A stretch of DNA of 64,000 bases, from positions 1 to 64,000 of IMG/VR virus record IMGVR_UViG_3300042923_000281; one strand, written 5' to 3'. Shown piece by piece: positions 42,983-60,607 of the stretch (position 1 is the first letter of the stretch; the number at the start of each line of letters is the position of its first letter). Under the pieces are notes generated by a model. The model had not been told where the DNA came from, made no database searches, and worked only from the letters and a program-made list of their open reading frames with translations. The translations under genes were made by a program, and so were the position numbers. Source of the stretch: a virus.

Positions 42983-45373
42983 ATGAGTACTGTCCTTCCA
43001 CAATACCCTTTCGATCCGACGGGTGTCGCGGCAACAAACAAGGTGACCGAGACCCAATCGATTCGTTCGCGGGGTACATTCGATCATTATTTCATCATTC
43101 CGCGCAGCGGTCCGTTCTACGCCACTGGCGTGAAACTGCGACTGTATCCGCAGGGTGCAAACGTCAACAACCCATCGTTGGGTGTCGACCTTCACGAAGG
43201 CGAACACTACAACTTCGGGTATCACTTCGCTTACGCGTCTCATACCATTGGTTTGCCGGTCTACGGCGCCATCACGTTCTACGACCGCAATCTCGAAGGT
43301 CAGCTCCGTATGGAGTACCAGACCCTCGGTGACGATTGGGTACTGGACGATCAGAAGTTCGCTGAGCTTCTGCTTAATGTGGCGTACAACCCGCGCATTG
43401 CAAACTGGGAACAGGTGGTTGAACTGCCTCGTGAATTCCCGGTGGTCAACCATGACTTCAACATTGACGACTTTGTCGGCATGTCGGAAGTGGTTGATGA
43501 GTTGGCGGACATCGAGAAGGCCTTGCTTCAACAAGGCGTCGGCGGTATCGCAGAACACATCGCTGACAAGTCCAACCCTCACGCGGTGACCAAATCGCAA
43601 GTGGGTCTGGCACTGGTGGATAACTTCCCGACTGCTACAGTAGGTGAAGCAACCGCCGCGGTGGCCAATAACCGTTTTATGACGCCTCTGCGAACCAAGC
43701 AGTTGATCGATGCCGTTGCCACTGCTGCGCTCAATGCGCACATGGCCGACATGAACAACCCGCACCAGGTGACCAAGGCGCAAGTCGGTCTGGGGAGTGT
43801 ACAGAACTTTGCCCTGGCCTCTCAGGCTGAAGCTGAAGCCGGTGCCTCGAACGCCCGCTACATGACTCCCCTGCGGACTCGTGAAGCCATCGAAGCCATT
43901 GTCGGTGGAAAGATCGACACGCACATCGCCGACAAGAACAACCCTCATGCCACTACCAAGGCACAGGTTGGCTTGGGCAACGTCGTTAACATTGGTATCG
44001 CAACCAATGCGGCGGCTTTGTCTGGTGCGGACGACTCCGGCATCATTACTCCACGACTGCTGTCGCTGGTGTTGAGTGAAACAGTGGGGTCGGGTGTTAC
44101 TGACCACATCAACAACTTCAACAACCCGCACGGCACCACCAAGTCTCAAGTAGGCTTGGGTAGCGTTGAAAACTTCGGTATTGCCACTCCTGCTGAAGCC
44201 GCTGATGCCACGGCCAACAACAAGTACATGACTCCTCTGGCGGTTCGTCAGGCGATCAATGCCTTGGTGGGTGACAGTTCGAATGCTCACGTCAGTGACT
44301 TCAACAACCCGCACAAGGTGACCGCGGCTCAGGTGGGTACCTACACCGAGCAAGAGATCGATGCGCTGTTGCTGGACAAGCTGGACGTCAACACAGCGGC
44401 GTCTAACGCCCTGAAGGTCTACGGCTTGACGCAGCCTCAGTTGGCAGCGTGGGTCGGTCAGCAGAAGGCAGGTGACTCCCTCCTGTTCGACGGCAAGACC
44501 TACATCGATGTCATGAACACGTTCCTCGCCAGTAAGGTTGCTGACACGTCGAAGTTTGACGGTAAGACCTACGCTGAAGTGAAGCAGGACATGGCAGGCC
44601 AAGTGGCGGGCAGCAAGATCCAATACGCTGTCCCAGAAATGCCACTGTTGATCGACGGCACAGGTAATGAAGTCCCTGCTCCGGTCCACTGGATCTTGCT
44701 GGGTAGCTTCAAGGCTCCAATCAATGGCCTGCATGCAGATCTGACGTTGATGCTGACCGGTGGTCGTAACGACGAATCCCTCAATGCCGATAAGCAACAC
44801 ACGGCGCTGCTGGAGATCGGTGCGACGTACGATCAGGAAGGTGGTGTGGGTGACTTCACTCTGCATCCTCGTGGTGCGGCAGTCAAACACATGTCGGCTG
44901 GTGCGTACCCAATGACCTTGGGCTTTGTGGTGACAGGTACCAACCTGAACTCGAAGATCGATGTCTACCTTAAAGGTGTAGGGCAGCGCAACCCGATCAA
45001 CATCACCGAGCTGTCGGACAAGCTCTGGATTCCGGCTACGTTCCCGGCGTGGGAAGATCTGGCTGACGTCGTCACTGTGGAACCTGCTGGGATTGTGTAT
45101 CCAGCGGTCTTCACGGACGGTACTGCTGACATCGCGGCATTGCAGGCTTTCCAAGCCCGTCGTGATAACCCACACGCGGTAACCAAGGCACAAGTAGGAC
45201 TTGGCTCTACGCCGAACTACGCTGCGGCCACCAACGCCCAGGCGGTTACAGGCACTGCAACGAACCTGTTGATGACTCCTGCTACAACCACCGCCAAAGT
45301 CGATGATTCTATCGGCAAGATGTGCGATGAGTTGATTACGGTCATTGATGCGTCGATGCCGCTGTTCGCTTGA
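42983..45373 (+). CDS. Tail fibre protein 1, 796 aa
   Basis: The N-terminal 60 residues (LPQYPFDPTGVAATNK) are shared with the next gene and probably attach the fibre to the baseplate. After them come six copies of a 45-60-residue repeat built on NPH-x-x-T-x-x-QVGLG, with YMTP/FMTP at the end of most units, as in many phage fibres. The C-terminal part (about 530-730) is a separate beta-rich region, probably receptor binding, and a last repeat copy follows near residue 730. Start ATG follows CGGAGAGC. First gene of the long plus-strand unit. Confidence 0.85.
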   Translation: MSTVLPQYPFDPTGVAATNKVTETQSIRSRGTFDHYFIIPRSGPFYATGVKLRLYPQGANVNNPSLGVDLHEGEHYNFGYHFAYASHTIGLPVYGAITFYDRNLEGQLRMEYQTLGDDWVLDDQKFAELLLNVAYNPRIANWEQVVELPREFPVVNHDFNIDDFVGMSEVVDELADIEKALLQQGVGGIAEHIADKSNPHAVTKSQVGLALVDNFPTATVGEATAAVANNRFMTPLRTKQLIDAVATAALNAHMADMNNPHQVTKAQVGLGSVQNFALASQAEAEAGASNARYMTPLRTREAIEAIVGGKIDTHIADKNNPHATTKAQVGLGNVVNIGIATNAAALSGADDSGIITPRLLSLVLSETVGSGVTDHINNFNNPHGTTKSQVGLGSVENFGIATPAEAADATANNKYMTPLAVRQAINALVGDSSNAHVSDFNNPHKVTAAQVGTYTEQEIDALLLDKLDVNTAASNALKVYGLTQPQLAAWVGQQKAGDSLLFDGKTYIDVMNTFLASKVADTSKFDGKTYAEVKQDMAGQVAGSKIQYAVPEMPLLIDGTGNEVPAPVHWILLGSFKAPINGLHADLTLMLTGGRNDESLNADKQHTALLEIGATYDQEGGVGDFTLHPRGAAVKHMSAGAYPMTLGFVVTGTNLNSKIDVYLKGVGQRNPINITELSDKLWIPATFPAWEDLADVVTVEPAGIVYPAVFTDGTADIAALQAFQARRDNPHAVTKAQVGLGSTPNYAAATNAQAVTGTATNLLMTPATTTAKVDDSIGKMCDELITVIDASMPLFA
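43555..44345 (+). repeat. Tail-fibre NPH...QVGLG repeats (gene 1)
   Basis: Five consecutive protein-coding repeats within the first tail fibre, each with H-x-x-D-x-NNPH-x-x-TKAQVGLG. A sixth copy lies at about 45160-45240. The units are diverged at DNA level, so they are protein repeats and not a CRISPR-like array. Confidence 0.8.
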
Positions 45374-45443: not shown

Positions 45444-46889
45444 ATGAGTGTACCACCGATTATCCAGTACCCTCTTGACCTAGACGGTACGTCACCGACG
45501 AATAAGATCGTTGGTGAGCGACGGGAGATCAGTACAAACACGGCTCGCGCGTTTGTTCCCAAAGCAGGTCCTTTCTACACCAGCTCGTTTGTCATCATCA
45601 ACGCAGACACCGGTAAGCCACTGGTGCCGGTAGACGACTACGTGTTGGTTCAACCGTTCTCTCAGGCTTCCTTGCGAAGCGGTAAGGACGTGCAGTGTGC
45701 GGTGGTCCTTAAAGTGCAGGCCCCTATCACGGTGATCATGGATTACCAAGTGGTCGGCGGTGAGTACTCGTGGAACCTGTCGGCTCTGGCTGACTTGATC
45801 GCGCAACTGAACCTCGATGACCGTCCTATCAAATGGGGTTCCATCATCGGGCGTCCTACGGCGTATCCACCGGCTCCGCACATCCACGACATCGGCGATA
45901 CCTACGGCTGGGAATACGTGGTGTGGCAATTGGAGCGGATCACCAACGCGATTCTGGTCGGTGATGAAGCGTCTCACGATGAACTGCGTCAACAGATGCA
46001 ATTCATTCGGGATCAACTGCAAGCGAACATCGATGCAGTGGACCTGAAGATCGACAATCACCTGAATGACTTCAACAACCCACACCAGACCACGAAAGCT
46101 CAGGTCGGTTTGTCGTTGGTGGAGAACTATCAGGTTGCGTCGAACGCCGAGGCTCTGGCGGGTACTGTGGGCAACCGTTACATGACCCCAACCTTGGTGG
46201 CGATTCTGGCTAACCGTATCTCTCAGGAGATCACGGACGCTCACGAAGCCAAGAAGAACAACCCTCACGCCGTTACAAAGGCGCAGGTTGGTCTGGGCAG
46301 TGTCGACAACTTTGCCACGGCTACCCAAGCCCAAGCAGAAGCTGGTGCCGCGACTAACGTGTTCATGACACCGCAGCGCACGTACCAGGCGATCATGGTG
46401 TTCGCAGGTAACAAGATCAACCAGCACGTGGCGGACATGAACAACCCGCACAACACCACGAAAGCACAGGTTGGCCTTGGCTTGGTTGACAACTTCCAGA
46501 CTGCCACGGCAGCAGAAGCTCAGCAAGGCATCCTGAACGATCGGTTTATGACCCCTGCTCGTACCAAGGCGGCTATTGATGCCATGGTCGGTAACGTCAT
46601 CAACCAGCACATCTCGAACTTCAACAATCCACACAACACGACCAAAGCGCAAGTGGGGTTGGGGAACATCCCTAACAACATCACGCGTGCTCGTGGGTTG
46701 AACTCCGACGATTACCTGTTGACCGCCGGTGGCATGTTCGATCACGTGAACTCCGCTGACCACGATGCCCGTTACGCTCCGAAGAACGCTGCGGGTGTTG
46801 ACTGCTCGGTGCACTGGAACGGCAACGCCGCCTACATCTGGGGTGGTGGTGCGTGGCGCCAAGTCTGGCCGCCTCTGTGGCAAGACTGA
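45444..46889 (+). CDS. Tail fibre protein 2, 481 aa
   Basis: The N-terminus (IIQYPLDLDGTSPTNKI, then KAGPFYTSS) is paralogous to that of fibre 1. Four repeats of the NNPH-x-x-TKAQVGLG type follow at residues about 205-415. A short C-terminal domain has YAPKNAAG and a Trp-rich end (WGGGAWRQVWPPLWQD). The shared N-terminus suggests the two fibres dock on the same baseplate site type. Start ATG after ATGGAGTTTCTCC. Confidence 0.85.
   Translation: MSVPPIIQYPLDLDGTSPTNKIVGERREISTNTARAFVPKAGPFYTSSFVIINADTGKPLVPVDDYVLVQPFSQASLRSGKDVQCAVVLKVQAPITVIMDYQVVGGEYSWNLSALADLIAQLNLDDRPIKWGSIIGRPTAYPPAPHIHDIGDTYGWEYVVWQLERITNAILVGDEASHDELRQQMQFIRDQLQANIDAVDLKIDNHLNDFNNPHQTTKAQVGLSLVENYQVASNAEALAGTVGNRYMTPTLVAILANRISQEITDAHEAKKNNPHAVTKAQVGLGSVDNFATATQAQAEAGAATNVFMTPQRTYQAIMVFAGNKINQHVADMNNPHNTTKAQVGLGLVDNFQTATAAEAQQGILNDRFMTPARTKAAIDAMVGNVINQHISNFNNPHNTTKAQVGLGNIPNNITRARGLNSDDYLLTAGGMFDHVNSADHDARYAPKNAAGVDCSVHWNGNAAYIWGGGAWRQVWPPLWQD
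46059..46690 (+). repeat. Tail-fibre NPH...QVGLG repeats (gene 2)
   Basis: Four protein-level repeats in the second tail fibre, homologous to those of the first. They could recombine with the first gene's copies to swap receptor-binding ends. Confidence 0.75.
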
Positions 46890-46917: not shown

Positions 46918-47424
46918 ATGTTTCAACGAATGGAAAACCTGTTCACTGAAATCAGTGAAGAACTGCTGGACCTCGATGTCCTGATGATGAGTCCTCATGT
47001 GTACGAGCAGGGCTTGGTGAAGTTTATCAAGAACGGCGGTAGTCACGATGTTTTCACTATTTCTGATTACCTTGAGATCGACGACTGTCCTGTCAAGGTA
47101 GAAGGCATGGAACGCCTCAACAGAACCATGTGGAACGTCTGTAAACGGTTGGCAGATCACTTCGGCCATGATGGCCCGGTGACCTGTCACCTGTTTATCT
47201 CCCCAAGGGACGGGGTAAGTTTCCCTATGCACACTGACTTGGACGATGTGGTTATCTACATGGTCACAGGACAAAAGACTTTCGAGTCACTGGACGGGTC
47301 GATGGACCTTGTAGCCGGTGACGCTATCTACATCCCGAGAGGTACGGAACACCGTGCCATCAACACTGACAGTTCCTTGATGCTGAGTTTCGGCCTGGAA
47401 CTCTTCACGGAAGCTAAACTGTGA
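46918..47424 (+). CDS. Cupin/JmjC-like Fe(II) oxygenase, 168 aa
   Basis: A double-stranded beta-helix protein with the metal triad visible: His105 and Asp107 in FPMHTDLDD, and His145 in PRGTEHRA, after the LVAGDAIYIPRG strand. This HxD...H pattern and the length fit small 2-oxoglutarate/Fe(II)-dependent hydroxylases of the cupin_8/JmjC type, or a non-catalytic cupin. Start ATG 46918 follows TTGAGGA. It overlaps the next radical-SAM gene by 4 bases (GTGA), so the two are made together and probably act on the same target. First enzyme of the modification cluster. Confidence 0.75.
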   Translation: MFQRMENLFTEISEELLDLDVLMMSPHVYEQGLVKFIKNGGSHDVFTISDYLEIDDCPVKVEGMERLNRTMWNVCKRLADHFGHDGPVTCHLFISPRDGVSFPMHTDLDDVVIYMVTGQKTFESLDGSMDLVAGDAIYIPRGTEHRAINTDSSLMLSFGLELFTEAKL

Positions 47425-48458
47425 ATCAAAAGACCATTTACGTCAAGACCACCGGTACTTGCAACCTGAACTGTCAGCACTGTTTCACCAACGGGAAGAA
47501 CGGGGATAAGACCCACTTCAACCCAGAGGCGACAGTGGCCTGGATCAAAGACTTTATGTCTCGGTATCCGGAAGACACTCATTACCACATCGAATTCCAC
47601 GGCGGGGAGCCTTTCCTTGTGCCGCTGGAGAAGATGAAGATCGTAGCCGATGCGTTCATTGAACAAGAGAACGTGTCCATGTGTGCCAACAGCAACTTGA
47701 CCTTCAAGCTGACTGACGCGCACATCGACTTCATCAAGCATTATTTTGGTGGTTACATTGGGACCAGTTGGGATCATTGGATTCGCTGGAGCAACGAGAA
47801 GCAGGTGAACCTGTGGAAGAGTAATCTTCGGTTGCTGAACTCCCACGACATTGACATTGGTCTCAAGGTGTCTGTCAGTCGTCCTCTTATCGAGACCACG
47901 CCTGATTGGTTCCTCGATCAGATGGAGGCCATTGCGGTGGACGATGTGTCACTGGAGCGTTTGACCCATGACGGCAGTGCTGAGGTCAATCCAGACATCT
48001 TCCCCAACAACGAGGCTCAGGATAACTGGTACCTCGCGCTTTATTTGCGTTACAAAGAACGGAACCCACGCGTAAAGATTCGCACCTTGGACATCATCGA
48101 GCAAAAGCTCAAGATGAAGATGGTGAAGGTCGACACCAACTGCCGTAACTGTGAGCAGAACCTTGTGACCATGAACCCAGACGGGTCGTTGTCCGGTTGC
48201 CCTAACGCAGCCACCAAGCTTCACCATGCCAAGTTAGAACAGGGCGTCGATGCGTTCCTTCAATCCGAATCTCGGGTCGAAGAGATCGTGACTGAATTGA
48301 CGTGGGGTGATACGTGCATTACGTGCGACGTGTTCGATCTATGTGGGGGCGATTGTCATCGACTTCCATGGCAGAAAGGCCGTTGTGGTGGTCTCAAGAA
48401 CACCCTTCGTTTTTTGTCGGGTCGAACTCAACAGTCCAACCTGATTATAAAGGTGTGA
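47421..48458 (+). CDS. Radical SAM/SPASM peptide-modifying enzyme 1, 345 aa
   Basis: The 4Fe-4S/SAM motif CNLNCQHC (Cys14, 18, 21) opens the TIM-barrel-like domain. FHGGEPF (61-64) is the SAM-binding GGE motif. Near the C-terminus SPASM cysteines include NCRNC, a later GC, CITCDVFDLC (CX2CX5C) and GGDC, room for auxiliary iron-sulphur clusters. SPASM proteins modify peptide or protein side chains (thioether, C-C crosslinks, or formylglycine). It starts at GTG 47421, overlapping the oxygenase, and ends one base before the CHTS-repeat protein, its most likely substrate. Confidence 0.88.
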   Translation: MNQKTIYVKTTGTCNLNCQHCFTNGKNGDKTHFNPEATVAWIKDFMSRYPEDTHYHIEFHGGEPFLVPLEKMKIVADAFIEQENVSMCANSNLTFKLTDAHIDFIKHYFGGYIGTSWDHWIRWSNEKQVNLWKSNLRLLNSHDIDIGLKVSVSRPLIETTPDWFLDQMEAIAVDDVSLERLTHDGSAEVNPDIFPNNEAQDNWYLALYLRYKERNPRVKIRTLDIIEQKLKMKMVKVDTNCRNCEQNLVTMNPDGSLSGCPNAATKLHHAKLEQGVDAFLQSESRVEEIVTELTWGDTCITCDVFDLCGGDCHRLPWQKGRCGGLKNTLRFLSGRTQQSNLIIKV

Positions 48459-48459
48459 T

Positions 48460-48996
48460 ATGGCCGAAGTAATTACTCGGAACCGGATGGCCGTCAATGC
48501 CAACTCCATTCTGAAGAACAACATGAACAGTGGGATCAGTTGGGGTACGAATAACTACCCTGCCAACTCCCTGCCGGGCTGGTTTGCTGGAACGACTGCT
48601 GGGGTGGACTTCACTGCCGTGGCGGGTCACTTCCAAGCCGGTAAGCCCAGTGCGTCTCAGACAGTAGCTGTGCTGCGTAACATCGCTAACACCTTTGGTG
48701 GTGTGCGGACTACGCGGATCGTCATCTACTACAACAACAACGGGAACCTGCAAGTCCAGTACGATGGAACTGCGGTGGCCAACACTATATACGGTGTAGG
48801 TGATTTCGCCTCCCAAGCCAACCTTGCTGGCCTTGGAGTGAATACTCCATTGTCCTTGAACATGTTCAACGCTGCCTGTCAGGCGCTCTGGAACGTGTAC
48901 GTGGCCAACTGCCGGAACCAAGTCCTTACTCTGACCAACACCGTTTGCCACACGAGCTGTCACACCAGTTGCCACTCGTCCCGCGGTCGTCGGTAA
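48460..48996 (+). CDS. Candidate modified virion protein with Cys-His-Thr-Ser repeat tail, 178 aa
   Basis: A soluble body of about 155 residues (MAEVITRNRMAVNANSIL ...) rich in Asn, Gly and Val is followed by a C-terminal tail of three tetrapeptides, CHTS-CHTS-CHSS (163-174), then RGRR. The encoding codons differ at synonymous positions between copies (TGC/TGT, ACG/ACC, AGC/AGT/TCC), so the repeat is kept at the peptide level. Two more cysteines lie nearby (AACQ, ANCR). It starts one base after radical SAM enzyme 1. I infer that the tail is the substrate of one or more cluster enzymes. A structural (fibre-associated) role for the body is possible but not shown; simple metal binding by the tail is the main alternative. 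Confidence 0.75.
   Translation: MAEVITRNRMAVNANSILKNNMNSGISWGTNNYPANSLPGWFAGTTAGVDFTAVAGHFQAGKPSASQTVAVLRNIANTFGGVRTTRIVIYYNNNGNLQVQYDGTAVANTIYGVGDFASQANLAGLGVNTPLSLNMFNAACQALWNVYVANCRNQVLTLTNTVCHTSCHTSCHSSRGRR
48946..48981 (+). repeat. Triple CHxS tetrapeptide repeat
   Basis: Three 12-base coding units: TGC CAC ACG AGC, TGT CAC ACC AGT, TGC CAC TCG TCC. Peptide identity is almost complete while silent positions differ, including AGY and TCN serine codons. This excludes recent slippage and indicates purifying selection for Cys-His-x-Ser. Confidence 0.85.
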
Positions 48997-49013: not shown

Positions 49014-49823
49014 GTGGATCAGACTACCGAAGTGGAAGTCAAGAAAGAGCCTAACAAGCTACCTGAACCGCGCTTTGCAGCCATCGAAGGCCCGCAGGTT
49101 GTCATCGAGACAACCGTACCTGTACCTATCGCCATCATGCGCCGCAAGTTCAGTGAGAACATCAAGTTCATCGTGGACTACGACAACAGTCGCCACAAGG
49201 GCAAGGTGTTCATCACGTACCTCACCAACTTGAACGTTGAGTGTGAGCTGCGCTTTGGCTCAGTGGAGTCGAAACTGGAGCTGGTGAAAGAGTACCTGCA
49301 CATCACCTCCATGGTCGACCTGCCTCAGCTGGAAGACATCGTGATCAACCTGTTGCTGGCAGCGACGGGCAAGCCGTACCACTTGGACTTCAATCCTCTG
49401 GACTTCATTCTGGAGAACGAAGCGATCCTTCAGGTATGGATGCGTAACTGCTGCATGATCCCGACGTACGCCTTGCACAGTTACCCGCCGACTGAAGAGT
49501 TGGTAAAGAACTACGAAGAGATCCCAGGCGAAGACCTGACCGGTATCAACTTCGTGCACTTGGCCAGCCACCTGATGTTCCCGATGCTGATTTCCGACGT
49601 CCCTGAAGAGCACTGGTGCTGGAACAAGACGTTCTTCAAAGAGTACTGCTTCGGTGGTCACAACCTGTTCTACTACACGCAGTCGGAGAACAACCCGTTC
49701 TTCATGGCGTTGCTGGTGGTCAGTGAGCCGGAAGCAGTGGGTGATCTGGGGATTGCAGCGGCCACTATCCTGCAAGAAAACCACACTTACCTAAAGGGCC
49801 TCGAACATGTACCATCTGCTTAA
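49014..49823 (+). CDS. Unknown protein of modification cluster, 269 aa
   Basis: I chose GTG 49014 because AAGGAG lies six bases upstream; earlier in-frame codons run through the previous gene's tail. The body is alpha/beta with CC (RNCCMI) and several other Cys and His residues (EEHWCWN, KEYCFGGHN). No known domain. It overlaps the next gene by 17 bases. Given its place between radical SAM genes it may be a maturation partner or second substrate; that is inference only. Confidence 0.75.
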   Translation: MDQTTEVEVKKEPNKLPEPRFAAIEGPQVVIETTVPVPIAIMRRKFSENIKFIVDYDNSRHKGKVFITYLTNLNVECELRFGSVESKLELVKEYLHITSMVDLPQLEDIVINLLLAATGKPYHLDFNPLDFILENEAILQVWMRNCCMIPTYALHSYPPTEELVKNYEEIPGEDLTGINFVHLASHLMFPMLISDVPEEHWCWNKTFFKEYCFGGHNLFYYTQSENNPFFMALLVVSEPEAVGDLGIAAATILQENHTYLKGLEHVPSA

Positions 49824-50862
49824 CCAGACGTACGTCGATACTGAAACACGGATCGACCGTACGGCCAATACGATCACCATCTCCCCGCAGGTGGGCTTCG
49901 AGTACATCCCTCAGGCCAATGAGAAGGTCGGCACCCATTTGGGTTACGGCACCAGTCTCGATGCGTTCACGCCTGAGCAGTTCCTCGACCTCATGATTGC
50001 CGCGCGTGATCTGGAAGAGAAGGTCGTCATCTACACTGATGGTAAGACCTACGCTCGCATGTACGCCATGTTGATCAAAGCGGTGTTTCCAAGCATCGAC
50101 TTCGAGAACTTCCGCTGGTTCATGCTCTGCAAGAAGGCCACCTTCAACTCGATCATCGTAGCCATGGGTGAACCCCGTGTTGACGTGCTCTCGAGTGTGG
50201 TCATCAACACAGCGCTGTGCCAAGAGCTGTTCGATAAGGAAGAGGCTCTGCAAGAGGTCTTCAACGAACTGGTGGCAGAAGACGCCGATGCACTGTCGCT
50301 GGAATGGCACATTGCTCGACTGCGTACCGAAGACATTGCGGGAAAGATCCCTAAGGCAACCAAGACCATCCTGCGTCGTATCGCTCTGTCGAACGCCCAT
50401 GATGCCATGGATGTCTGGGCACGTCACTTGACCCGTCCTGAGTTCTGGGACATGGCCGGTGCTGACATGGAAACGTTGCTCAATGCACCGTCCGTGTTTG
50501 AAGGCTGCTTGGGTCTGCCTCACCTGGCCTCTCAGCAGTTGCTGCGTCCTGGCCTGTACGACTTCCGTCCGAACGATACGTGGATCAAAGGCATGCTGCG
50601 TGAAGCAGTGGACCTGATGCACCGTCTGGAAGACGACTCGTCGGCTGACCGTGCGGCTGAGATCCTGCGCTTGCTGGAAGACGACCGGAACATGGTAGAG
50701 GCAGCTAACTGCCTTGATCGTGTCAACCGGATGTTCAACGGCGAGATGCGGATTGCGTTGGCCATGCGTGACACAGGCAAGTACGACGAGAACCTCATTC
50801 GTCACATCCTGAACATGGAGCTGTCGAGCCTCAAGGCAGCTTTGGAAGGAGCGGCCTGGTAA
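49807..50862 (+). CDS. Unknown protein of modification cluster, 351 aa
   Basis: A mainly helical protein (MYHLLNQTYVDTETRIDRT ... AALEGAAW) with a beta N-terminus and no recognised motif. It overlaps the gene before by 17 bases and shares one base with the start of radical SAM enzyme 2. Tight overlaps suggest the set 49014-51857 is one functional block. Role unknown. Confidence 0.75.
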   Translation: MYHLLNQTYVDTETRIDRTANTITISPQVGFEYIPQANEKVGTHLGYGTSLDAFTPEQFLDLMIAARDLEEKVVIYTDGKTYARMYAMLIKAVFPSIDFENFRWFMLCKKATFNSIIVAMGEPRVDVLSSVVINTALCQELFDKEEALQEVFNELVAEDADALSLEWHIARLRTEDIAGKIPKATKTILRRIALSNAHDAMDVWARHLTRPEFWDMAGADMETLLNAPSVFEGCLGLPHLASQQLLRPGLYDFRPNDTWIKGMLREAVDLMHRLEDDSSADRAAEILRLLEDDRNMVEAANCLDRVNRMFNGEMRIALAMRDTGKYDENLIRHILNMELSSLKAALEGAAW

Positions 50863-51857
50863 TGGAACTGATCCCTGTAGTGAACATACTCAGGGAGAAG
50901 AAGGGTCGCCGTAAGGAGGCCCATCTGATCCTGTTCGAATGGTGCAACCTGCGGTGTTCCTTTTGCCATCAGGACCATGATTCCAAAGTGGGCTTCGATG
51001 CAGTTGACATGATCCGGAAAGCACAGACACTGATTGATTCGGTGGACAGTGAATCCGAGATCGTGATCAACATCACCGGCGGTGAACTGTTCATGGACGA
51101 TGTACCGGACTGGATGTTCGGCTACTACCTGACGATTGGCAAGATGCTGCTCGAGAACTTCCCTCATGCCAAACTGGTCTGGGGGACGAACTTGATCTTC
51201 AAGGACGTCTGGCGGGTAGCGCGGTTGATCCACATGCTGAGACCGTATGGCAAAGTCGTTCTGGCTACATCGTACGATCCGGCTGGCCGTTTCAATGAGA
51301 TGCAACGAGTCCGCTTCTTCGAGGTGCTTGAGGAAGTGGCTCCGTTGGTTGAAACTGTCAACGTGGTGATTACCAAGCAGAACATCGAATCGTTCCTTGC
51401 GGGGCGTGAAGGTCGTGAGGTGGCTTGGCTCTGTGAACAGTTCGACGTGTACTTCGACCACTACATCCCTAGCCAGATGTACGAGTACATTCAGCCGGAT
51501 GAAGAGCTCATCAGTGCGCTCTACCTGCACCTCAACAAGAAGTACCCCAACTCCTACCCGATCAAGGACTGGAAGGCTAACGTGATCAATGAGACCACGT
51601 GCCGCTCCACCAAGATCATCAACAAGGACGGCGTTGTCAGTACTTGTTGGTCTGAGGCGGGCAAGGGTGCGATCTTGGATGAGGCTGAAGGTCTGCGGGC
51701 TAAGGATGAAGCAGAGATTGCGTTCGTGGAACATTACGACTGCTTCTCCTGCGAGTACTACACCCGGTGTGGCTTGCGGTGCTTCCTCCATGACACTGTC
51801 TTGGGTGAGAAGTCCAAGGTGTGCAGCATCAAGACCATGTTCAAAGCAATTCTGTGA
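50862..51857 (+). CDS. Radical SAM/SPASM enzyme 2, 331 aa
   Basis: CNLRCSFC (Cys28, 32, 35) is the radical SAM cluster motif, and NITGGEL carries the SAM-binding GGE. The C-terminal SPASM region has TTCRS, STCWS, CFSCEYYTRC (CX2CX5C) and GLRC, then a final Cys in VCSIK. It starts at ATG 50862 with the stop of the preceding gene overlapping (TAATG). A hairpin (51877-51899) follows. It is probably a peptide-modifying enzyme acting within the cluster; the reaction cannot be read from sequence. Confidence 0.87.
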   Translation: MELIPVVNILREKKGRRKEAHLILFEWCNLRCSFCHQDHDSKVGFDAVDMIRKAQTLIDSVDSESEIVINITGGELFMDDVPDWMFGYYLTIGKMLLENFPHAKLVWGTNLIFKDVWRVARLIHMLRPYGKVVLATSYDPAGRFNEMQRVRFFEVLEEVAPLVETVNVVITKQNIESFLAGREGREVAWLCEQFDVYFDHYIPSQMYEYIQPDEELISALYLHLNKKYPNSYPIKDWKANVINETTCRSTKIINKDGVVSTCWSEAGKGAILDEAEGLRAKDEAEIAFVEHYDCFSCEYYTRCGLRCFLHDTVLGEKSKVCSIKTMFKAIL

Positions 51858-51994: not shown

Positions 51995-52207
51995 ATGACC
52001 GATTCCATCTTGCCAATACGTCGCCGTACGCCACTCGTGCCTCGTATCTCCCGTAAACTGGGCGATGATGCGTGGCTTCGTGAGAAGCTCAAAGAAGCGC
52101 AGTGTCCAGAAGCAGAGCAACGCCGACGTGACTACCTCGGTCAATGGACCGCCCAGCCTGCTGATAAGGAAACGCCCGATGGACCTGATCGTCAAGCCGA
52201 CCGTTAA
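51995..52207 (+). CDS. Short basic peptide gene, 70 aa
   Basis: Starts MTDSILPIRRRTPLVPRISR at an ATG nine bases after GGAGGG. It is rich in Arg and has one Cys (EAQCPEAEQ). The C-terminal half is charged and polar. It overlaps the start of radical SAM enzyme 3 by 29 bases, an arrangement common for small substrate or leader/partner proteins of peptide-modifying operons. It could also be a small regulator or spurious; the good ribosome-binding site and overlap favour a real gene. Confidence 0.6.
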   Translation: MTDSILPIRRRTPLVPRISRKLGDDAWLREKLKEAQCPEAEQRRRDYLGQWTAQPADKETPDGPDRQADR

Positions 52208-53267
52208 ATGTAACTTCAAGTGCACGTTCTGCTCGAGCACCCACCTCTCTGAAGATCCGAAAGAGATCGTAGAGCTGGAACAGATCGAGCGGTTCGTGCA
52301 ACGCTTCAATGTGAACACCATCATCGTCAACGGCGGTGATCCTCTGATGATGCCTCCTGAGTACTACTGGAGCCTCATCGAGATCCTAGACCGTAACGAC
52401 AGCGATGCGTCGATCAGCTTCACGTCCAACCTGTGGCCGTTCTACGTCAAGCCAGAGAAGTGGGAAGAACTGTTCAAGCATGAGCGCATGGGTGTCACGA
52501 CCTCCTTTCAGTACGGCGACAAGCGTCTGAAGGGCGATGGCAGTGTCTTTACCCAAGAAGACTTCCAGAAGGTCTCAGACCTCTTCCTGGAGCGCATTGG
52601 GTATCGTCCAGAGTTCATTGCGGTCATTGATCGGGACAACGAGCACACCGTGCTGGATACCGTGCGCCTAGCTAAGGAGATGGGCGTGGTGGCTAAGGTC
52701 AACTACGTCATGGGTTCAGGTCCTGAAGTGGTCCGGGGTGGCATCACCATCGGTGGACAGAACCAGTTCTTCACGCAGGCGGACATGTACGGTCACTACA
52801 TCGAGATCTACGACGCGGGTCTCATGGAGTGGGAAAGCAACACCAAGCAGATGGCCAAGCGACTTCAGCACAAGCACACCACGTGTCCACTGGCCCGTAA
52901 CTGTGATGAAGGTATCCGCACTCTGCAACCGGGTGGTGGGTACTTTTCCTGCGGTGCCTTTGCTGATGACGGCGCGTACCCGATTGACTTCGAGAAGGAG
53001 ATGACGACTGACGTGATAGCGTTGCCTCTGCGTTACGAAGCCGATCTGGATTCCATGAAGGAGTCGTGCTACACCTGCCCTATGTTTTCCATCTGCAATG
53101 GCTGCCGTAAGACCGTGGCTGACACCAAGCGGTTTGGGCTGGTTGAACACCACTGTCGCAAGATGAAAAGCCAAGCTGCCAAGATCATCGAAATCAATGG
53201 CATGTCCGCTCACCTAGAGCCGACGCCGTATGAAGACGAATCACTTCCTTTGATTGCGCGAGGTTAA
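52179..53267 (+). CDS. Radical SAM/SPASM enzyme 3, 362 aa
   Basis: CNFKCTFC (Cys11, 15, 18) starts the domain, and VNGGDPLMMP is the GGE-type motif with Asp in place of Glu. SPASM cysteines: TTCPLARNC, YFSCGAF, CYTCPMFSIC (CX2CX5C), NGC and HHC. Start ATG 52179 follows AAGGA and removes 38 in-frame upstream codons that overlap the 70-residue gene. Likely peptide-modifying. It is followed by a 71-residue gene one base later. Confidence 0.87.
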   Translation: MDLIVKPTVKCNFKCTFCSSTHLSEDPKEIVELEQIERFVQRFNVNTIIVNGGDPLMMPPEYYWSLIEILDRNDSDASISFTSNLWPFYVKPEKWEELFKHERMGVTTSFQYGDKRLKGDGSVFTQEDFQKVSDLFLERIGYRPEFIAVIDRDNEHTVLDTVRLAKEMGVVAKVNYVMGSGPEVVRGGITIGGQNQFFTQADMYGHYIEIYDAGLMEWESNTKQMAKRLQHKHTTCPLARNCDEGIRTLQPGGGYFSCGAFADDGAYPIDFEKEMTTDVIALPLRYEADLDSMKESCYTCPMFSICNGCRKTVADTKRFGLVEHHCRKMKSQAAKIIEINGMSAHLEPTPYEDESLPLIARG

Positions 53268-53268
53268 C

Positions 53269-53484
53269 ATGTCCGTCCCTATCCTGGATCAAATGGCGTT
53301 CTTCCCACCCGGTCATGAACTCAAGCTTCAGATCCCTGAGGTCTTGAAGAAGATCGTGCTCAAGCGCTGTGTCGAAAGCGTTGACGACTTCCTCGACGTC
53401 GTGAGCGATTCCCGGGGTATTAAACTGAGCCCTTACCAGCGAGATTTCTACAAATGCCTAAGTCAAGAATCAACGTCTCGCTGA
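53269..53484 (+). CDS. Short protein of modification cluster, 71 aa
   Basis: Starts MSVPILDQMAFFPPGHEL after GCGAGG. A mostly helical small protein with two Cys (KRCVES, YKCLSQ). It overlaps radical SAM enzyme 4 by 31 bases and starts one base after enzyme 3, so it is embedded between them. It could be a recognition-element or substrate protein; I see no clear RRE (PqqD-like) signature. Function unknown. Confidence 0.65.
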   Translation: MSVPILDQMAFFPPGHELKLQIPEVLKKIVLKRCVESVDDFLDVVSDSRGIKLSPYQRDFYKCLSQESTSR

Positions 53485-54386
53485 ACCCGTGGTACTACTG
53501 CAACTTTCGGTGTGACTTCTGTTACCTCACTGAGCAGCAGTTAAGCGACAAGCGATTCATTCCGCTGGACGTCTTTGAACAACGCATTGATGAACTGCTG
53601 GAGCACTTTGAGATTGGCCACATCGACATCTACGGTGGGGAAGTCTTCCTGTTGCCTCAGCAGTACTTGATGGACATCAAAGACATTCTGCACATGCGAG
53701 GGATTGATGACATCGTCGTCGTGACCAACCTGTCGCACGTACCGGACATCGTCCACGACCCGGCATTTGACATCTCGGTGTCGTATGACTTCGGGGCGCG
53801 TGAGAAGCACGATCAGGTGTTGCAGAACATCTTCCAGCTCAGCAACAAGTTCAACATCCTGACGTTGGCAGGCCGTACGTTCTTGGATCTGGTGACTCCT
53901 GACGAGTACGTACAGACCATGAACGGGTTCCCACATCTGAAAGGCTGTGAGATCAAACCGTACAGTGCCAACCAAGCCAACGATCAGGACATCTCGTTCA
54001 AGGAGTTTGAGGAGTTCGTCTGGGCAGTCATCACCCACCCAGAGCGTAAGTTCTATTTCGAGAACGAGACTCAGGTCAAGGAAGCCGTAGAAGGCAGTCG
54101 TAATGCTTTCTCTGATGACCACATCTACATCACTCCGACTGGCGATTTCGCTGTACTGGAGTTTGACAAGGATGATCGTGAGTTCTTCCTGACCGTTGAT
54201 GGGGTTGAAGGTTACCTCAACTGGTGCGGACAAGAGTATGAGCGAGTAGCGGACAATCCGTTCTGTGCATCGTGTACGTTCCACGGCGGGTGTCTGTCTG
54301 AGCACTTGCGGGAAGTCACAACCCTTGAGAACTCCTGCAATGGGTTCAAGGGTCTCTTGTTAAAGTGGGTGGAGCATGGATCTTGA
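53454..54386 (+). CDS. Radical SAM enzyme 4, 310 aa
   Basis: CNFRCDFC (Cys16, 20, 23) and IYGGEVFLL (GGE) mark the radical SAM core. The C-terminus has a reduced cysteine set: CASCTFHGGC (CX2CX5C) and a final NSCNG. It is shorter than a full SPASM protein, so it may hold only one auxiliary cluster. It starts inside the 71-residue gene and overlaps enzyme 5 by 11 bases. Confidence 0.85.
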   Translation: MPKSRINVSLNPWYYCNFRCDFCYLTEQQLSDKRFIPLDVFEQRIDELLEHFEIGHIDIYGGEVFLLPQQYLMDIKDILHMRGIDDIVVVTNLSHVPDIVHDPAFDISVSYDFGAREKHDQVLQNIFQLSNKFNILTLAGRTFLDLVTPDEYVQTMNGFPHLKGCEIKPYSANQANDQDISFKEFEEFVWAVITHPERKFYFENETQVKEAVEGSRNAFSDDHIYITPTGDFAVLEFDKDDREFFLTVDGVEGYLNWCGQEYERVADNPFCASCTFHGGCLSEHLREVTTLENSCNGFKGLLLKWVEHGS

Positions 54387-55413
54387 ATTTGTAGAGCACC
54401 GGCAGCGGTTGGAAATCACCCTCGACATCTTTCGGGGGTGCCAACACCATTGTTCAGGGTGCATGATCGATAAGCAGTTGGGTGGGGACGTTGATGACAT
54501 TCCTCAACTGGCTGCTATGATCAAGGAAATGATGGAGGCTGGGTACGTGGCCTTTGACATGGGGATCGGTCCTACCGACTACATGTCCTCGGACAACACC
54601 AGCGACGTCATGAGTCATCCTGTCTTCCAAGAGATGGCGCAATGGTTCCATCAAGTGACGTTCAACGCAGCGTTCCTTGAGAAGGACATGGACAAGTACA
54701 AGGTGATGTGTGAGGAGATCGATGCCTCCATCCCCGGTAAGGCTGTCCGCTTCCTGATGCCGGCTGCTCCGCACTTCTTCAAGAGCGACAAGTTCGGCAA
54801 CATGATCACCGAGAAGCTTGAGTTCGTCAAAGAGCACCTGAAGGTCGCTTACTTGAACGAAGCGGGCTTTGTGGTCAACTGCACACACGAGACTGTGGGT
54901 GAGGATTTCGATGACTTGATGAAGAATGGGTTCGCTGTGGATTTCCCAGTGGACAAGGACGACATCTTGAACATCCCGTATGGTCGTCTCAAGGTCAAAG
55001 ACCTGATGACTGCTCAGCGGATCACCCGCATGTCTCACCGGATCACGCAGTTCTACTCAGGCCTCAATGGGACTGATGAGCGTCGTCGTAATCCTGACCT
55101 CTGTTACCACACCGGAACGATGGTCAATCTGCTGTACACCGGCGGTAAGCTGTATTGGGTGCCTTTTCTTAAAGACGACTGTCCGTTCCTTGAGGACGAG
55201 TTCGTCGTTCCTCGCCCCTGGTCTATGGATAACCTTCTGAACACCCGTCAGAAGGCCATGGAGCGCGCTATGGAGTATCTTAAAGACACTCCGTGCATGA
55301 GTTGCGTCTACATGAGTAGTTGTAGCGAAAAGGGGATCATCAATATCATGGAACGGATGCAGATCCGTGAATGCCTCGTGGGGTTGCAGTATGTCGACAA
55401 TGATTCAGAGTAG
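54376..55413 (+). CDS. Radical SAM enzyme 5 (paralogue of 6), 345 aa
   Basis: CQHHCSGC (Cys22, 26, 29) is the cluster motif, with two histidines in the CX3C loop. Instead of a clear GGE it has MGIGPTDYM at that place. The C-terminal region has TPCMSCVYMSSC (CX2CX5C). DEFVVPRPW and similar segments are shared with enzyme 6, so the two are tandem paralogues. Overlap with the next gene is 23 bases. Atypical SAM-binding motif; activity is inferred. Confidence 0.8.
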   Translation: MDLEFVEHRQRLEITLDIFRGCQHHCSGCMIDKQLGGDVDDIPQLAAMIKEMMEAGYVAFDMGIGPTDYMSSDNTSDVMSHPVFQEMAQWFHQVTFNAAFLEKDMDKYKVMCEEIDASIPGKAVRFLMPAAPHFFKSDKFGNMITEKLEFVKEHLKVAYLNEAGFVVNCTHETVGEDFDDLMKNGFAVDFPVDKDDILNIPYGRLKVKDLMTAQRITRMSHRITQFYSGLNGTDERRRNPDLCYHTGTMVNLLYTGGKLYWVPFLKDDCPFLEDEFVVPRPWSMDNLLNTRQKAMERAMEYLKDTPCMSCVYMSSCSEKGIINIMERMQIRECLVGLQYVDNDSE

Positions 55414-56416
55414 AGCGTTCAACCTGACGCTTGAGATTCTACAAGGCTGTAAGTTCCAATGCGTCGGCTGTATGGTGGACAAGGACTTCGATCCCGGTCC
55501 CTTCAATAAAGACCGGCGTGAGCTGCTGGACATGGTCGATGACATGAAGGCTGCGGGCTATCGCCTGCGTGAATTCACCATCGGGCCTGTAGATGTGATC
55601 GCCTCCAAGGCCGGGGTGGACATCCTTGACCACCCGTTGATCTTCCAGTTGGCTCAGCGTTACGATTCGATGGTGTTGCCGCTGGCTCTGTTGACGGACG
55701 ACGGACTGGAGGAGCTGTGTGAGAAGGTCAACTTCCTGATGAAAGGGAAGTCCTTCACGATTGCCACCCCGTTCCCACTCAAGAGCACGTACAACCCCAA
55801 GCACCAAGAGCTGATCAACCGTCGTGTGCAGTACGTCATTGACCACCTGCCTGATGTGAAGTTCGAACTGCTCTACCTGACCGTGAACATGACCGGTGAC
55901 TCCATTGACCAGTTCAGTGTCGAGACCAATCAGGCCATTCATGAGTTGGACTTCGGGGTGAAACGGCTGGTGGAGTACGTGTTCCCTCATGTACGCAAAG
56001 GGTTCGATGACCTGATGAACCGTTCTGCCTTCCTGAGGGCTTTTGGGAAGTTCTGTGACGTGATTCACGCATGTAAGGACACAGAGTTCACCCGGTACCT
56101 GATCAAGCCTCTGGCGGACTCTCTGGAGGCCACGTATCGTTCGGGCAAGTTGTACTACACACCGACCTTGATCGAGAAGTTCCCGATCTTCCATCATGAC
56201 TTTGTCGTGCCGAAGCCATGGTGCAACGCAACCATCGAGCAGTTCGAGGAAGATCAGTACATGGAGCAGTTGGTCAACAACAGCAACAACCAACCGTGCA
56301 GCGATTGCATGCACTTGGACCGTTGTGCTCGCGGTGATGTTCAAGCCATCATGGCACACCTGTGCAGCACTGACTGCCTCGTCGACATGAAAAACCGTTG
56401 GGATGTGCCTGTATGA
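55391..56416 (+). CDS. Radical SAM enzyme 6 (paralogue of 5), 341 aa
   Basis: The start is ATG 55391 (MSTMIQSRAF), preceded by GTGGGG. CKFQCVGC (Cys20, 24, 27) opens the domain, and FTIGPVDVI stands at the place of the GGE motif. HDFVVPKPW matches DEFVVPRPW of enzyme 5, and CSDCMHLDRC (CX2CX5C) sits near the C-terminus. Tandem duplication followed by divergence is the simplest origin. It overlaps the next oxygenase-like gene by 4 bases (ATGA). Confidence 0.8.
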   Translation: MSTMIQSRAFNLTLEILQGCKFQCVGCMVDKDFDPGPFNKDRRELLDMVDDMKAAGYRLREFTIGPVDVIASKAGVDILDHPLIFQLAQRYDSMVLPLALLTDDGLEELCEKVNFLMKGKSFTIATPFPLKSTYNPKHQELINRRVQYVIDHLPDVKFELLYLTVNMTGDSIDQFSVETNQAIHELDFGVKRLVEYVFPHVRKGFDDLMNRSAFLRAFGKFCDVIHACKDTEFTRYLIKPLADSLEATYRSGKLYYTPTLIEKFPIFHHDFVVPKPWCNATIEQFEEDQYMEQLVNNSNNQPCSDCMHLDRCARGDVQAIMAHLCSTDCLVDMKNRWDVPV

Positions 56417-56859
56417 TCAATGATAAATGGTGGGTCGATAAACGTTACAAGGTGGAGATCCCTGAGTGGCTTTTGGAACAGGCGTTCTGTGAAGTCAACA
56501 AGGAGTACATCGAAACTGAAACAGTTGTTGACTGGGCGCTGGAGAACATCCTGCCATTTGCTCAGAAGATGATGAGCACCCAAGACATCACAATCTGTGC
56601 CAACCATTTCCACATGGGAACGGCTGGCCTTACCCCTCATGACCACTTGCCTCATGCGTTCACGTCGATCCTGTATCTGACAGACGCTGAAGGTGAGCTG
56701 GTCATCCATCTACCGGACGGAAAGTTCATGCACGTCACACCAGAAGCAGGGTTGCTGGTTACGTTCCCTGCCCACCTGGTGCATCACGTCGAACAGTCCC
56801 CTTTTGACGAGCTTCGTGTCTCGTTGGCGAGCAACTATGAATTCACAACACCCGTATAA
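56413..56859 (+). CDS. 2-oxoglutarate/Fe(II)-oxygenase-like protein, 148 aa
   Basis: TPHDHLPH (76-81) followed by FTSILYLTD, then FPAHLVHHVE (His121-His125) and LRVSLASNYEF give the metal and 2-oxoglutarate-Arg (R135) pattern of small prolyl-hydroxylase-like folds (the H-x-H/D ... H ... R order). Start ATG 56413 is inside the preceding stop (ATGA). It overlaps the next gene by 23 bases. It could hydroxylate a residue in the cluster's substrate; substrate unknown. Confidence 0.7.
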   Translation: MINDKWWVDKRYKVEIPEWLLEQAFCEVNKEYIETETVVDWALENILPFAQKMMSTQDITICANHFHMGTAGLTPHDHLPHAFTSILYLTDAEGELVIHLPDGKFMHVTPEAGLLVTFPAHLVHHVEQSPFDELRVSLASNYEFTTPV

Positions 56860-57271
56860 AGACTATCAGCGCCTCTACAACGAGATGGTGACTGATCACC
56901 CCGACGCATTTGCCAACATGGAGATCGTCGAATCCGAAGAGCTGGTGGACAACGCGTTGCATTACTTCCGTGAAGCGACGTTCCCGTTGTACTACCCGGC
57001 CAAGTCGTACTCGGTCGCGATCATCTACGCGTTCAAGCTGTTTGAACTCTACGGGATCGGGATCTACGACGCCTTGCGTGACGAAGACCTGTTCTTGGGT
57101 CAAGACCCTTTCTTCGTGCCGTACGACGAAGACCCAGACACCTACGACGCTATCCTGATTGGGTTGCAACAGATCCCGAACTGGATCGAGTCGGGCTGGG
57201 CACCGCAGACCGTCAAGTACTTCATGCTCGAGTGCACGGAGGAAGGGGTTCAATCCGTCCTTGGAGGTTAA
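56837..57271 (+). CDS. Unknown protein of modification cluster, 144 aa
   Basis: Starts MNSQHPYKDYQRLYNE, acidic and aromatic-rich, with helical middle and no known motif. It overlaps the preceding oxygenase gene by 23 bases and lies one base before the next one, so it is almost certainly expressed with them. Its compact, acidic nature would suit a binding partner or small substrate-recognition protein. Confidence 0.7.
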   Translation: MNSQHPYKDYQRLYNEMVTDHPDAFANMEIVESEELVDNALHYFREATFPLYYPAKSYSVAIIYAFKLFELYGIGIYDALRDEDLFLGQDPFFVPYDEDPDTYDAILIGLQQIPNWIESGWAPQTVKYFMLECTEEGVQSVLGG

Positions 57272-57272
57272 C

Positions 57273-57830
57273 GTGGAAATCATCCAGCCCTGGAAAACCG
57301 AAATCGCTCGCATCAACGTCAGGGATCAGTTCGACATGGAGGCCTTTTCCAACGAGGTCTTCATGATGTACTCCATGACGCAAGGGGAAGCCAACTCGCA
57401 GGAGAAGATCAACGCTGAGAACTTCCCTGTCACGATGGACATGCGGGACAACCTCATCACCCCTCTGATTCAGAAGTTTGCCAAGCGCTGCTTCGACACG
57501 ACCTTGGACGACTTCTACGTCGAGACCAATGGCAAGTGGATAGAACCGGGTGAAGGCCTGTTCCCGCACTACCATCCAGGCTCTGTGGTATCCGCGATCT
57601 GCTACCCGTGTGACTCGAACAATGGCATGACCATGTTTGACCCACGGGGCAATGCGTGTCGCGGATACCCAAAACCTATGCGACAAGCCCACTTTGGCAA
57701 TTTCACGATCTCGCCACGGGCAGGGGACATCTTCATCTTCCCCAGCTATATCCAACACAGTGTCCCTCATGTGACGGAGGACATCAGACTGTCCCTGCTA
57801 CATGAGTACTACGTCACTCGAAACTTATAG
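57273..57830 (+). CDS. 2-oxoglutarate/Fe(II) oxygenase-like protein A, 185 aa
   Basis: Starts at GTG 57273 after GGAGG (MEIIQPWKTEIARIN). HYHPGSVVSAICYP (His99, His101), MFDPRG, then FPSYIQHSV (His162) and IRLSLLHEYY (Arg172) follow the order of the phage/bacterial 2OG-Fe(II) oxygenase group with N-H-P-x-S and F-x-D-P-R motifs (TIGR02466-like). It is clearly paralogous to the next gene over its full length with the same residue numbering. Probably a tandem duplication. Confidence 0.75.
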   Translation: MEIIQPWKTEIARINVRDQFDMEAFSNEVFMMYSMTQGEANSQEKINAENFPVTMDMRDNLITPLIQKFAKRCFDTTLDDFYVETNGKWIEPGEGLFPHYHPGSVVSAICYPCDSNNGMTMFDPRGNACRGYPKPMRQAHFGNFTISPRAGDIFIFPSYIQHSVPHVTEDIRLSLLHEYYVTRNL

Positions 57831-57841
57831 AAGGCTCGATA

Positions 57842-58393
57842 ATGAACATCATCCAACCTTGGAAGATCGAGATCGCCCAAATCAACCTGCTGGATAAGGT
57901 TGATAACGACGAACTCGCCAACGAGATTCACATGCTTCATTGCTTGTGTCCTCGTAGCAGCCAAACACCTCTGGACGTGACGCCTGAGCAGTTCCCTGCA
58001 TTGGCTCACTTCCGTGATGAGATCCTGCGTCCGATTGCTGAAGAATACATCCGTCGCTGCTTCGGTGTTGATCCGAAAGAGATCACCATCGACACCTTTG
58101 GCAAGTCGTTCGAGAACGGTGAATCCCTGGGGTCTCACCTGCATGGCAACAGCTGCCTGACCAGTGTGTACTACCCGGAAGATTCGAAAGCCGGTATGTC
58201 ACTGGTCGATCCTCGCTTCAATGCCTCGCGTGGTTATCCGCGTGCTGTGCGTGACACTCACTTCGGTGAGCATTACGTAGCGCCGAAGGCTGGTGACCTG
58301 TGGCTGATGCCAAGTTACATCCAACACAGCGTTGAAGCCAACCCGGCTGACATGCGTCTGTCCCTCATCAACGACTTCCACTTCAAGGCGTAA
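57842..58393 (+). CDS. 2-oxoglutarate/Fe(II) oxygenase-like protein B, 183 aa
   Basis: IIQPWKIEIAQIN at the N-terminus, HLHGNSCLTSVYYP (His99, His101), LVDPRF, FNASRGYP, MPSYIQHSV (His162) and MRLSLINDFHF (Arg172) align one-to-one with oxygenase A. The Gly/Asn/Ser at the HP position differs (HGNS versus HPGS), so substrate choice may differ. Catalysis as a hydroxylase is inferred from the metal triad and Arg. Confidence 0.75.
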   Translation: MNIIQPWKIEIAQINLLDKVDNDELANEIHMLHCLCPRSSQTPLDVTPEQFPALAHFRDEILRPIAEEYIRRCFGVDPKEITIDTFGKSFENGESLGSHLHGNSCLTSVYYPEDSKAGMSLVDPRFNASRGYPRAVRDTHFGEHYVAPKAGDLWLMPSYIQHSVEANPADMRLSLINDFHFKA

Positions 58394-60552: not shown

Positions 60553-60572
60553 GGTGATTCCTAAATGATGAA

Positions 60573-60600
60573 AAAGAAAAGAACCCGAAGGCTCTTTTCT
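60573..60600 (-). terminator. Rho-independent terminator
   Basis: AAAAGAACC-CGAA-GGCTCTTTT stem with the minus-strand tail TTTTCTTTTTC, after the gene ending at 60608. Confidence 0.75.
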
Positions 60601-60607
60601 GTAGGTG

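Follow-up and report, generated by a model that had tools for sequence, protein, structure and literature searches.

The bacterial Hxs system (HxsA-HxsB-HxsC-HxsD), the His-Xaa-Ser system that was reportedly described by Haft and Basu in 2011, combines a repeated His-x-Ser sequence with more than one adjoining radical-SAM enzyme. The phage locus analyzed here shares that arrangement but differs from Hxs in having a Cys ahead of each His, in the replaceability of both the His and the Ser, in being phage-borne, and in carrying four core radical-SAM genes. The triceptide enzymes (XncB, OscB, MscB, HaaB, and YhhB) are also SPASM radical-SAM proteins and, as may be the case here, work with a geometry of an aromatic residue i and the β-carbon of residue i+2. 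According to the published rule, residue i (Trp, Phe, Tyr, or His) is joined to C-beta of residue i+2, and among the three-residue cyclophane enzymes there is precedent for His as the donor and for Ser as the acceptor: HaaB and YhhB form the cyclophane on His, and MscB joins Phe to Ser (PMC11002830). However, triceptide systems modify small bacterial peptides, usually with one radical-SAM enzyme, and have no invariant Cys ahead of the aromatic residue, whereas the candidate substrate in the phage is the C-terminal tail of a folded protein, encoded with four core radical-SAM enzymes and oxygenases, and the enzyme score is far under the YhhB cut-off. The ranthipeptide enzyme PapB and QhpD are likewise SPASM enzymes that link Cys to another side chain close by, PapB doing so in repeated units; their thioether acceptors are Asp, Glu, Thr, and Asn (PMC11002830). 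In the phage tail, in contrast, Cys is followed by His, there is no acidic acceptor, and the enzyme score again lies far under the cut-off.

In published phage genomes, genes of PHROG 1802 are listed as enzymes, with neither a substrate nor a tag, whereas in the present analysis a particular tail is associated with them. The radical-SAM, 2-oxoglutarate (2OG) oxygenase, and cupin genes of phages FLC6, SURPRISE13, and RP12/RP31 are listed without a role, and the same group of reports includes a TARA T4-like genome with 12 radical-SAM genes (PMC8066314, PMC11898562, PMC5468394, PMC5332604). Searches of the openly licensed literature with the tail string and for phage radical-SAM enzymes returned nothing relevant, and no description of the tag or the cassette was found there. 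The window, a stretch of 64,000 nucleotides from a 277-kb virus record, probably contains a previously undescribed maturation cassette for the C-terminal tail of a virion protein. Family tests would place its mode of action within radical-SAM peptide maturation but outside the Hxs, triceptide, and ranthipeptide families, and there is a serious chance that the cassette merits a class of its own.

The Tagged Protein and Its Neighbors

The tag protein is encoded at 48460–48996 (+) and comprises 178 residues, the last of which read VCHTSCHTSCHSSRGRR, with a folded body (residues 1–163) and the C terminus CHTS-CHTS-CHSS-RGRR. A single base separates its start from the end, at 48458, of a radical-SAM/SPASM open reading frame. 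The tag itself (48946–48996, +) consists of three units (48946–48957, 48958–48969, and 48970–48981) followed by RGRR (48982–48993) and the stop codon (48994–48996). The units read TGC CAC ACG AGC, TGT CAC ACC AGT, and TGC CAC TCG TCC, and the codons after them are CGC GGT CGT CGG TAA, so that the synonymous differences, including those between AGY and TCN serines, are real. Between this protein and its relative in locus L002/DT01, pS in the tag is 0.91 and pN 0.027, as against a pN of 0.324 in the body; purifying selection on the tag is strong at the protein level and absent at silent sites. The sequence-only reading had given the open reading frame, its length, coordinates, C terminus, and one-base gap exactly, and its further statements, that the units differ in synonymous codons and that selection keeps the peptide, are borne out by the codons and by these substitution values.

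Two tail-fibre-like genes with NPHxxTKxQVGLxxV repeats (42983–45373 and 45444–46889, +) lie just upstream of the cassette. The first cassette gene, c3 (46918–47424, +), encodes a cupin/JmjC_2 protein with HxD...H residues (Pfam JmjC_2, 36.1 bits; cut-off 22) that is likely, as judged from its sequence, to be an Fe(II)/2-oxoglutarate hydroxylase; c3 occurs in 43 of 47 loci, usually two genes ahead of the tag. It is followed by rSAM-A (47421–48458, +; phrog_1802, 2.5e-52), which adjoins the tag gene. Downstream of the tag are two accessory proteins, the cassette-specific c2 (49014–49823, +; phrog_20767; 44 of 47 loci) and c6 (49807–50862, +; 61 of 62 loci found with c2), then rSAM-B (50862–51857, +), rSAM-C (52065–53267, +; reciprocal best match in 41 loci), the true start of which is probably about 100 bases downstream of the called start, and rSAM-D (53454–54386, +), which has Cys residues for one auxiliary cluster. 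Two divergent, lineage-specific enzymes with CxxxCxxC motifs come next: rSAM-E (54376–55413, +), identified by our own profile with no Pfam match, and rSAM-F (55367–56416, +), identified by our own profile with a weak PF04055 match of 20.9 bits. Three 2OG-Fe(II) oxygenases of family PF13759 are located at 56398–56859 (+; 29.4 bits, cut-off 27), 57159–57830 (+; 45.5 bits, true start probably downstream), and 57842–58393 (+; 44.8 bits); together with the cupin they are likely, from their family assignments, to add 2OG-dependent hydroxylation. A small conserved protein, c4 (56837–57271, +), has no Pfam match and is present in 36 of 47 loci and in 49 of the 62 c2 loci. An R2K-type ATP-grasp ligase (PF18299, 102.6 bits) is encoded just past the cassette at 59812–60798 (−), as it is in Pseudomonas phage pPa_SNUABM_DT01, and is possibly a further peptide-modifying enzyme.

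DT01 is the nearest annotated genome and has the gene order of the window: fibre-like genes, cupin, radical SAM, tag gene, further genes, more radical-SAM genes, and 2OG oxygenases. Clustering across loci gave the recurring order c3, rSAM-A, tag, c2, c6, rSAM-B, oxygenases, rSAM-C and rSAM-D, c4. Two arrangements are found, with either a single tagged gene right after rSAM-A or two tandem tagged genes; c6 and c11 occupy equivalent positions in these two types, and homology between them could not be demonstrated. One IMG/VR record of 151329 bases (G035, from which loci L058 and L071 derive) contains both types about 18 kb apart, with the tag of the single-tag cassette at 30709 and the tandem tags at 48460 and 48846. 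In Burkholderia phage cassettes, two genes annotated as dihydrofolate reductase lie between radical-SAM genes (L145:21403-22580).

The tree of the radical-SAM proteins resolves four orthologous clades, A to D, each with one copy per locus in 24–25 of 25 sampled loci; rSAM-E and rSAM-F are extras found in fewer lineages. The four core enzymes of the window all match PHROG 1802. In rSAM-A the CxxxCxxC motif is present in 33 of 33 sequences, and eight auxiliary-cluster Cys residues are conserved (C244-x10-G255-x4-C260, C299-x2-C302-x5-C308-x3-C312, and C322), in agreement with the SPASM pattern Cx9-15Gx4C - Cx2Cx5Cx3C - C. With a TIGR04085 score of 27.6 bits (cut-off 27), this cysteine pattern identifies rSAM-A as a putative SPASM-type maturase. 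Its best partial NCBIfam matches are the peptide maturases YhhB, PapB (second), DarE, and AmcB, but none of the cyclophane-maturase cut-offs tested was reached (YhhB, 51.1 of 445 bits; AmcB, 42.4 of 425; FxsB, 39 of 370), which places rSAM-A in a separate family. The similarity to YhhB, in particular, is partial, at 51 bits of a 445-bit cut-off. The Hxs radical-SAM families were not reached either (HxsB, TIGR03978, 28.3 of 370 bits; HxsC, TIGR03977, 24.1 of 267.9 bits), and membership in Hxs is ruled out by these scores. No HxsA-type His-Xaa-Ser protein was recognized: the tag protein has no NCBIfam match and its repeat is C-[H/F/Y]-x-[S/N/A/Q/R].

Association of the Tail with Radical-SAM Genes

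A DNA pattern for the tail, in which the last two Arg codons and the stop were left free, matched at least 120 stretches in IMG/VR. An exact RGRR end was present in at least 131 non-redundant proteins from these stretches and, because all 131 end in RGRR-stop, the tail is far beyond chance; conservation and the codon data rule out chance or an annotation artefact as its origin. The sole exception among the non-redundant pattern-matched proteins listed, L051, is a false pattern match that has no RGRR. With the body as query, all eight relatives retrieved, at identities down to 36%, carried the tail. No match was obtained when the 34-residue tail alone was run with tblastn against phages, for which the low-complexity filter is probably responsible, and two marine-type tag proteins used as queries matched no phage isolate. 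The cassette is carried by many marine phages as well as by jumbo phages that infect Pseudomonas, Burkholderia, Agrobacterium, and Sinorhizobium. The sequence-only reading had taken the system to be this phage's own, which does not hold because the tail recurs across many phages; searches for other phage proteins with C-terminal CHxS repeats and radical-SAM genes, of the kind that it had proposed, yielded many, and the co-occurrence holds.

The tail pattern also matched 13 stretches in assemblies of bacteria and archaea, ten of which were real tags, all on contigs with at least one radical-SAM gene nearby. Four of these ten loci (L138, L140, L141, and L142) are in contigs of metagenome-assembled genomes, three of them labeled Bdellovibrionaceae, Halobacteriovoraceae, and Bacteriovoracaceae; we read them as phage contigs in bins or as prophages.

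PF04055 matches were found in 50 of 50 records behind the tag loci, of which 49 are true tag records, and mostly numbered 4–6 per record, even with 20-kb fragments included. An in-house radical-SAM profile identified one to nine genes in each of 47 tag loci of about 20–30 kb. The nearest radical-SAM gene is immediately upstream of the tag in single-tag loci, L187 excepted, and usually immediately downstream in tandem-tag loci. Searches from the side of the neighbors agree: with c2 as query, 62 loci were obtained, every one with the tag and at least one radical-SAM gene, and with rSAM-C as query, 58 loci, comprising 46 with the strict tag, three with variant tails, and nine whose contigs break off short of the tag region; the two sets share contigs and are only partly independent. 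Among isolated phages, rSAM-A retrieved DT01, FLC6, FLC8, SURPRISE13, Atu_ph07, and Phosso, and in DT01, FLC6, SURPRISE13, Atu_ph07, and Phosso the gene after rSAM-A ends in the tag, with RGRR or RSRR. The central idea of the earlier reading, that the tail goes with the phage's radical-SAM enzymes, is strongly supported by these figures, and a tail retained after loss of all radical-SAM genes was encountered neither in these records and loci nor in the ten from assemblies.

As SbcC, tried as a control query, returned only three loci, the control set was instead composed of 80 loci related by a large tail protein whose gene lies ahead of many of the cassettes. In 69 of these, tag and radical-SAM genes were both absent, in three both were present, and in eight there was a radical-SAM gene without a strict tag. 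Two of the eight end just past the cupin and rSAM-A, one is L295 (see below), and the other five lack any core gene and hold one or two radical-SAM genes. Core cassette genes are nearly absent from the control loci, indicating that the cassette and the tag are gained or lost together.

This linkage bears on the possibility that the tail is an unmodified ligand of a metal, Fe-S cluster, or haem, by way of its three Cys and three His, with the radical-SAM genes serving something else nearby. Spaced Cys and His make good ligands, and His-crosslinked copper-binding ribosomal peptides are reported (PMC10206099). Near-perfect linkage to four radical-SAM orthologs argues against such a role, as does a variant in which Phe, which is not a ligand, replaces His. 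The tail also lacks CxxCH, the motif of c-type haem proteins, and has C-x3-C-H spacing only. We regard a purely ligating tail as very improbable.

Enzyme conservation provides a further constraint. Conservation is much the highest in rSAM-C, with a mean pairwise identity of 63% across unrelated phages and a median of 55% outside its own clade. The bodies of the tag proteins, in contrast, range from about 120 to 310 residues in length and, in other lineages, mostly show 21–36% identity to that of the window, a disparity that would be predicted for enzymes acting on the constant tail. The conserved tail sequence would be compatible with a docking signal as well as with modification, and the enzyme complex might bind CHxS-RGRR and modify another target instead, such as the tag protein's own body or an adjacent tail fibre. 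The tail is near-invariant in the manner of a recognition element, tail-fibre-like genes are directly upstream, and the tag gene lies amid enzyme genes. Against this, bodies and fibres are too divergent to account for such conserved enzymes, the fibre type varies while the four core enzymes stay the same, and the tail itself offers repeated oxidizable Cys and His residues resembling the substrates of radical-SAM enzymes. A tail that serves for docking alone is therefore an unlikely explanation, and we favor modification of the tail, which we consider likely from the pattern of linkage and conservation. The proposal of a new maturation system is thus partly supported: the linkage to radical-SAM enzymes holds, modification of the tail is probable, and the system is distinct from Hxs.

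Tail Variation and the Candidate Chemistry

Eighty distinct C termini were collected from searches made without the tag as bait and counted with a matcher for three CHxx units, so that invariance of Cys and His in this count is built in. The fourth unit position is mostly Ser, with some Asn, Gln, Arg, and Ala, and never Gly, a count to be read with the relatedness of the tails and their predominance of Ser at this position in mind; at the third position, after the His, Gly occurs in 47 of 240 units. In three cassette loci (L372, L373, and L380), the His of one unit is replaced by Phe or Tyr and the Cys is kept. L380:8572-9950 (−) encodes two tandem proteins ending in CHSSCHSNVTCYNSRGRR, and L372:4744-5436 (+) and L373, which are identical in sequence, have the tail CHYSCFTSSCHFSRGRR; the cassettes are otherwise complete. 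The CHxS motif as first proposed therefore stands with respect to the Cys and the repeats but not to an invariant Ser, and His-x-Ser gives way as a shared feature to Cys followed by an aromatic residue.

The tails end in RGRR, RSRR, or RARR at all loci but L295, where the tag protein near base 14881 has the tail CHSNCHGSCHGS, ending in YCHSNCHGSCHGSL, and lacks RGRR, either because the motif was lost or because of a frameshift in sequencing; its neighbors nevertheless include c2, c6, and two radical-SAM genes. Because RGRR is nearly always kept and has no obvious reactive residue, it is probably the end at which an enzyme docks.

The proposed substrate is thus the 16-residue tail (C-[H, rarely F/Y]-x-[S, never G])3-R-G-R-R, on which the four core radical-SAM enzymes, the JmjC-type cupin, and the 2OG-Fe(II) oxygenases would act, with c2, c6, and c4 as accessory proteins, perhaps for substrate handling. 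The tail agrees with the triceptide pattern: residue i is His or otherwise Phe or Tyr, and residue i+2, which supplies C-beta, is never Gly in the 80 tails. The exclusion of Gly at i+2 and the restriction of His replacements to Phe and Tyr fit the i to i+2 cyclophane rule. By analogy with these enzymes, three-residue cyclophanes joining a ring carbon of His to the β-carbon of residue i+2, to which the other enzymes would add hydroxylation or thioethers at Cys, would be the single most likely chemistry, one that we put forward only tentatively. Cyclophanes alone leave the invariant Cys and the need for four core enzymes unaccounted for; one of the other core enzymes might form thioethers at the Cys. 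On a broader view, for which we see a somewhat better than even case, a transferable cassette of four radical-SAM enzymes and oxygenases, present in unrelated tailed-phage lineages, would hypermodify (C-aromatic-x-S)3-RGRR to form a RiPP-like polycyclic tip on virion proteins. A substrate is thereby proposed for radical-SAM genes that are listed unexplained in jumbo and marine phages, which become one conserved cassette. Were the tail indeed modified and part of the virion, the cassette would also supply novel enzymes for crosslinking peptides, together with a genetic tag that is ready for use.

Location of the Tag Protein and Fate of the Tail

In Atu_ph07, most of the virion proteins detected by mass spectrometry are encoded by CDS 31–76, 170–215, and 284–329 (PMC6102473). 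CDS 170 is the tag protein and is the first CDS of the cluster 170–215; CDS 215 (gp215) is the major head protein, which confirms that the numbering agrees. The C-terminal tryptic peptide of gp170 ends in ...CHSSCHASCHNSR. From the position of gp170 at the boundary of the cluster defined by mass spectrometry we infer its detection in the virion, and the tag protein is probably a virion component. A fibre-associated role, as first suggested, is plausible because tail-fibre genes precede the cassette and the tag gene falls within a cluster defined by one published virion proteome. The matured tip would be exposed on the virus particle, with the tail or fibres as its most likely site, and would probably function in attachment or stability. 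Should the virion indeed carry a modified tail, phages build part of the particle by radical chemistry, probably for host attachment, and no earlier maturation system with multiple radical-SAM enzymes would be known for virus particles. Infection by SURPRISE13 requires host flagella (PMC11898562); nothing connects the tag to flagella.

The AlphaFold2 model of the tag protein, computed from 35 sequences, has a mean pLDDT of 87.5, with values of 66 and 51 for the blocks of the tail. The predicted body is a confident α/β domain whose last strand (residues 156–163) leads directly into the low-confidence tail. The tail is flexible or disordered in the model and would project from a body that is folded and evolves fast.

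A variable body with a constant tail also suits a scheme in which the modified tail is cleaved off to give a small peptide or cofactor-like product (RiPP or PQQ-like) directed against the host or competitors, with the body as carrier. Cassettes with multiple radical-SAM enzymes and oxygenases usually yield peptide products. However, no protease or exporter was recognized among the recurring cassette genes, of which c2, c4, and c6 are uncharacterized; the body is predicted to be a confidently folded domain; the tag protein of Atu_ph07 opens a cluster of virion proteins; and the cassette is placed among tail genes. Release of the tail is accordingly quite improbable compared with its retention on the virion protein.

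The model of c2 has a pLDDT of 81. Sequence and fold searches of the PDB with the tag body and c2 gave nothing significant, with no fold match below E 0.18 for the tag body or below E 0.1 for c2. The only close structural relatives of the tag body are other phage proteins, including a 296-residue protein of Atu_ph07, which is also the length of the tag protein of that phage. Three BFVD entries of 504–660 residues from Myoviridae sp. ctijX18 (A0A8S5USJ7, A0A8S5USJ8, and A0A8S5USV2) have the fold of the tag protein at low sequence identity.
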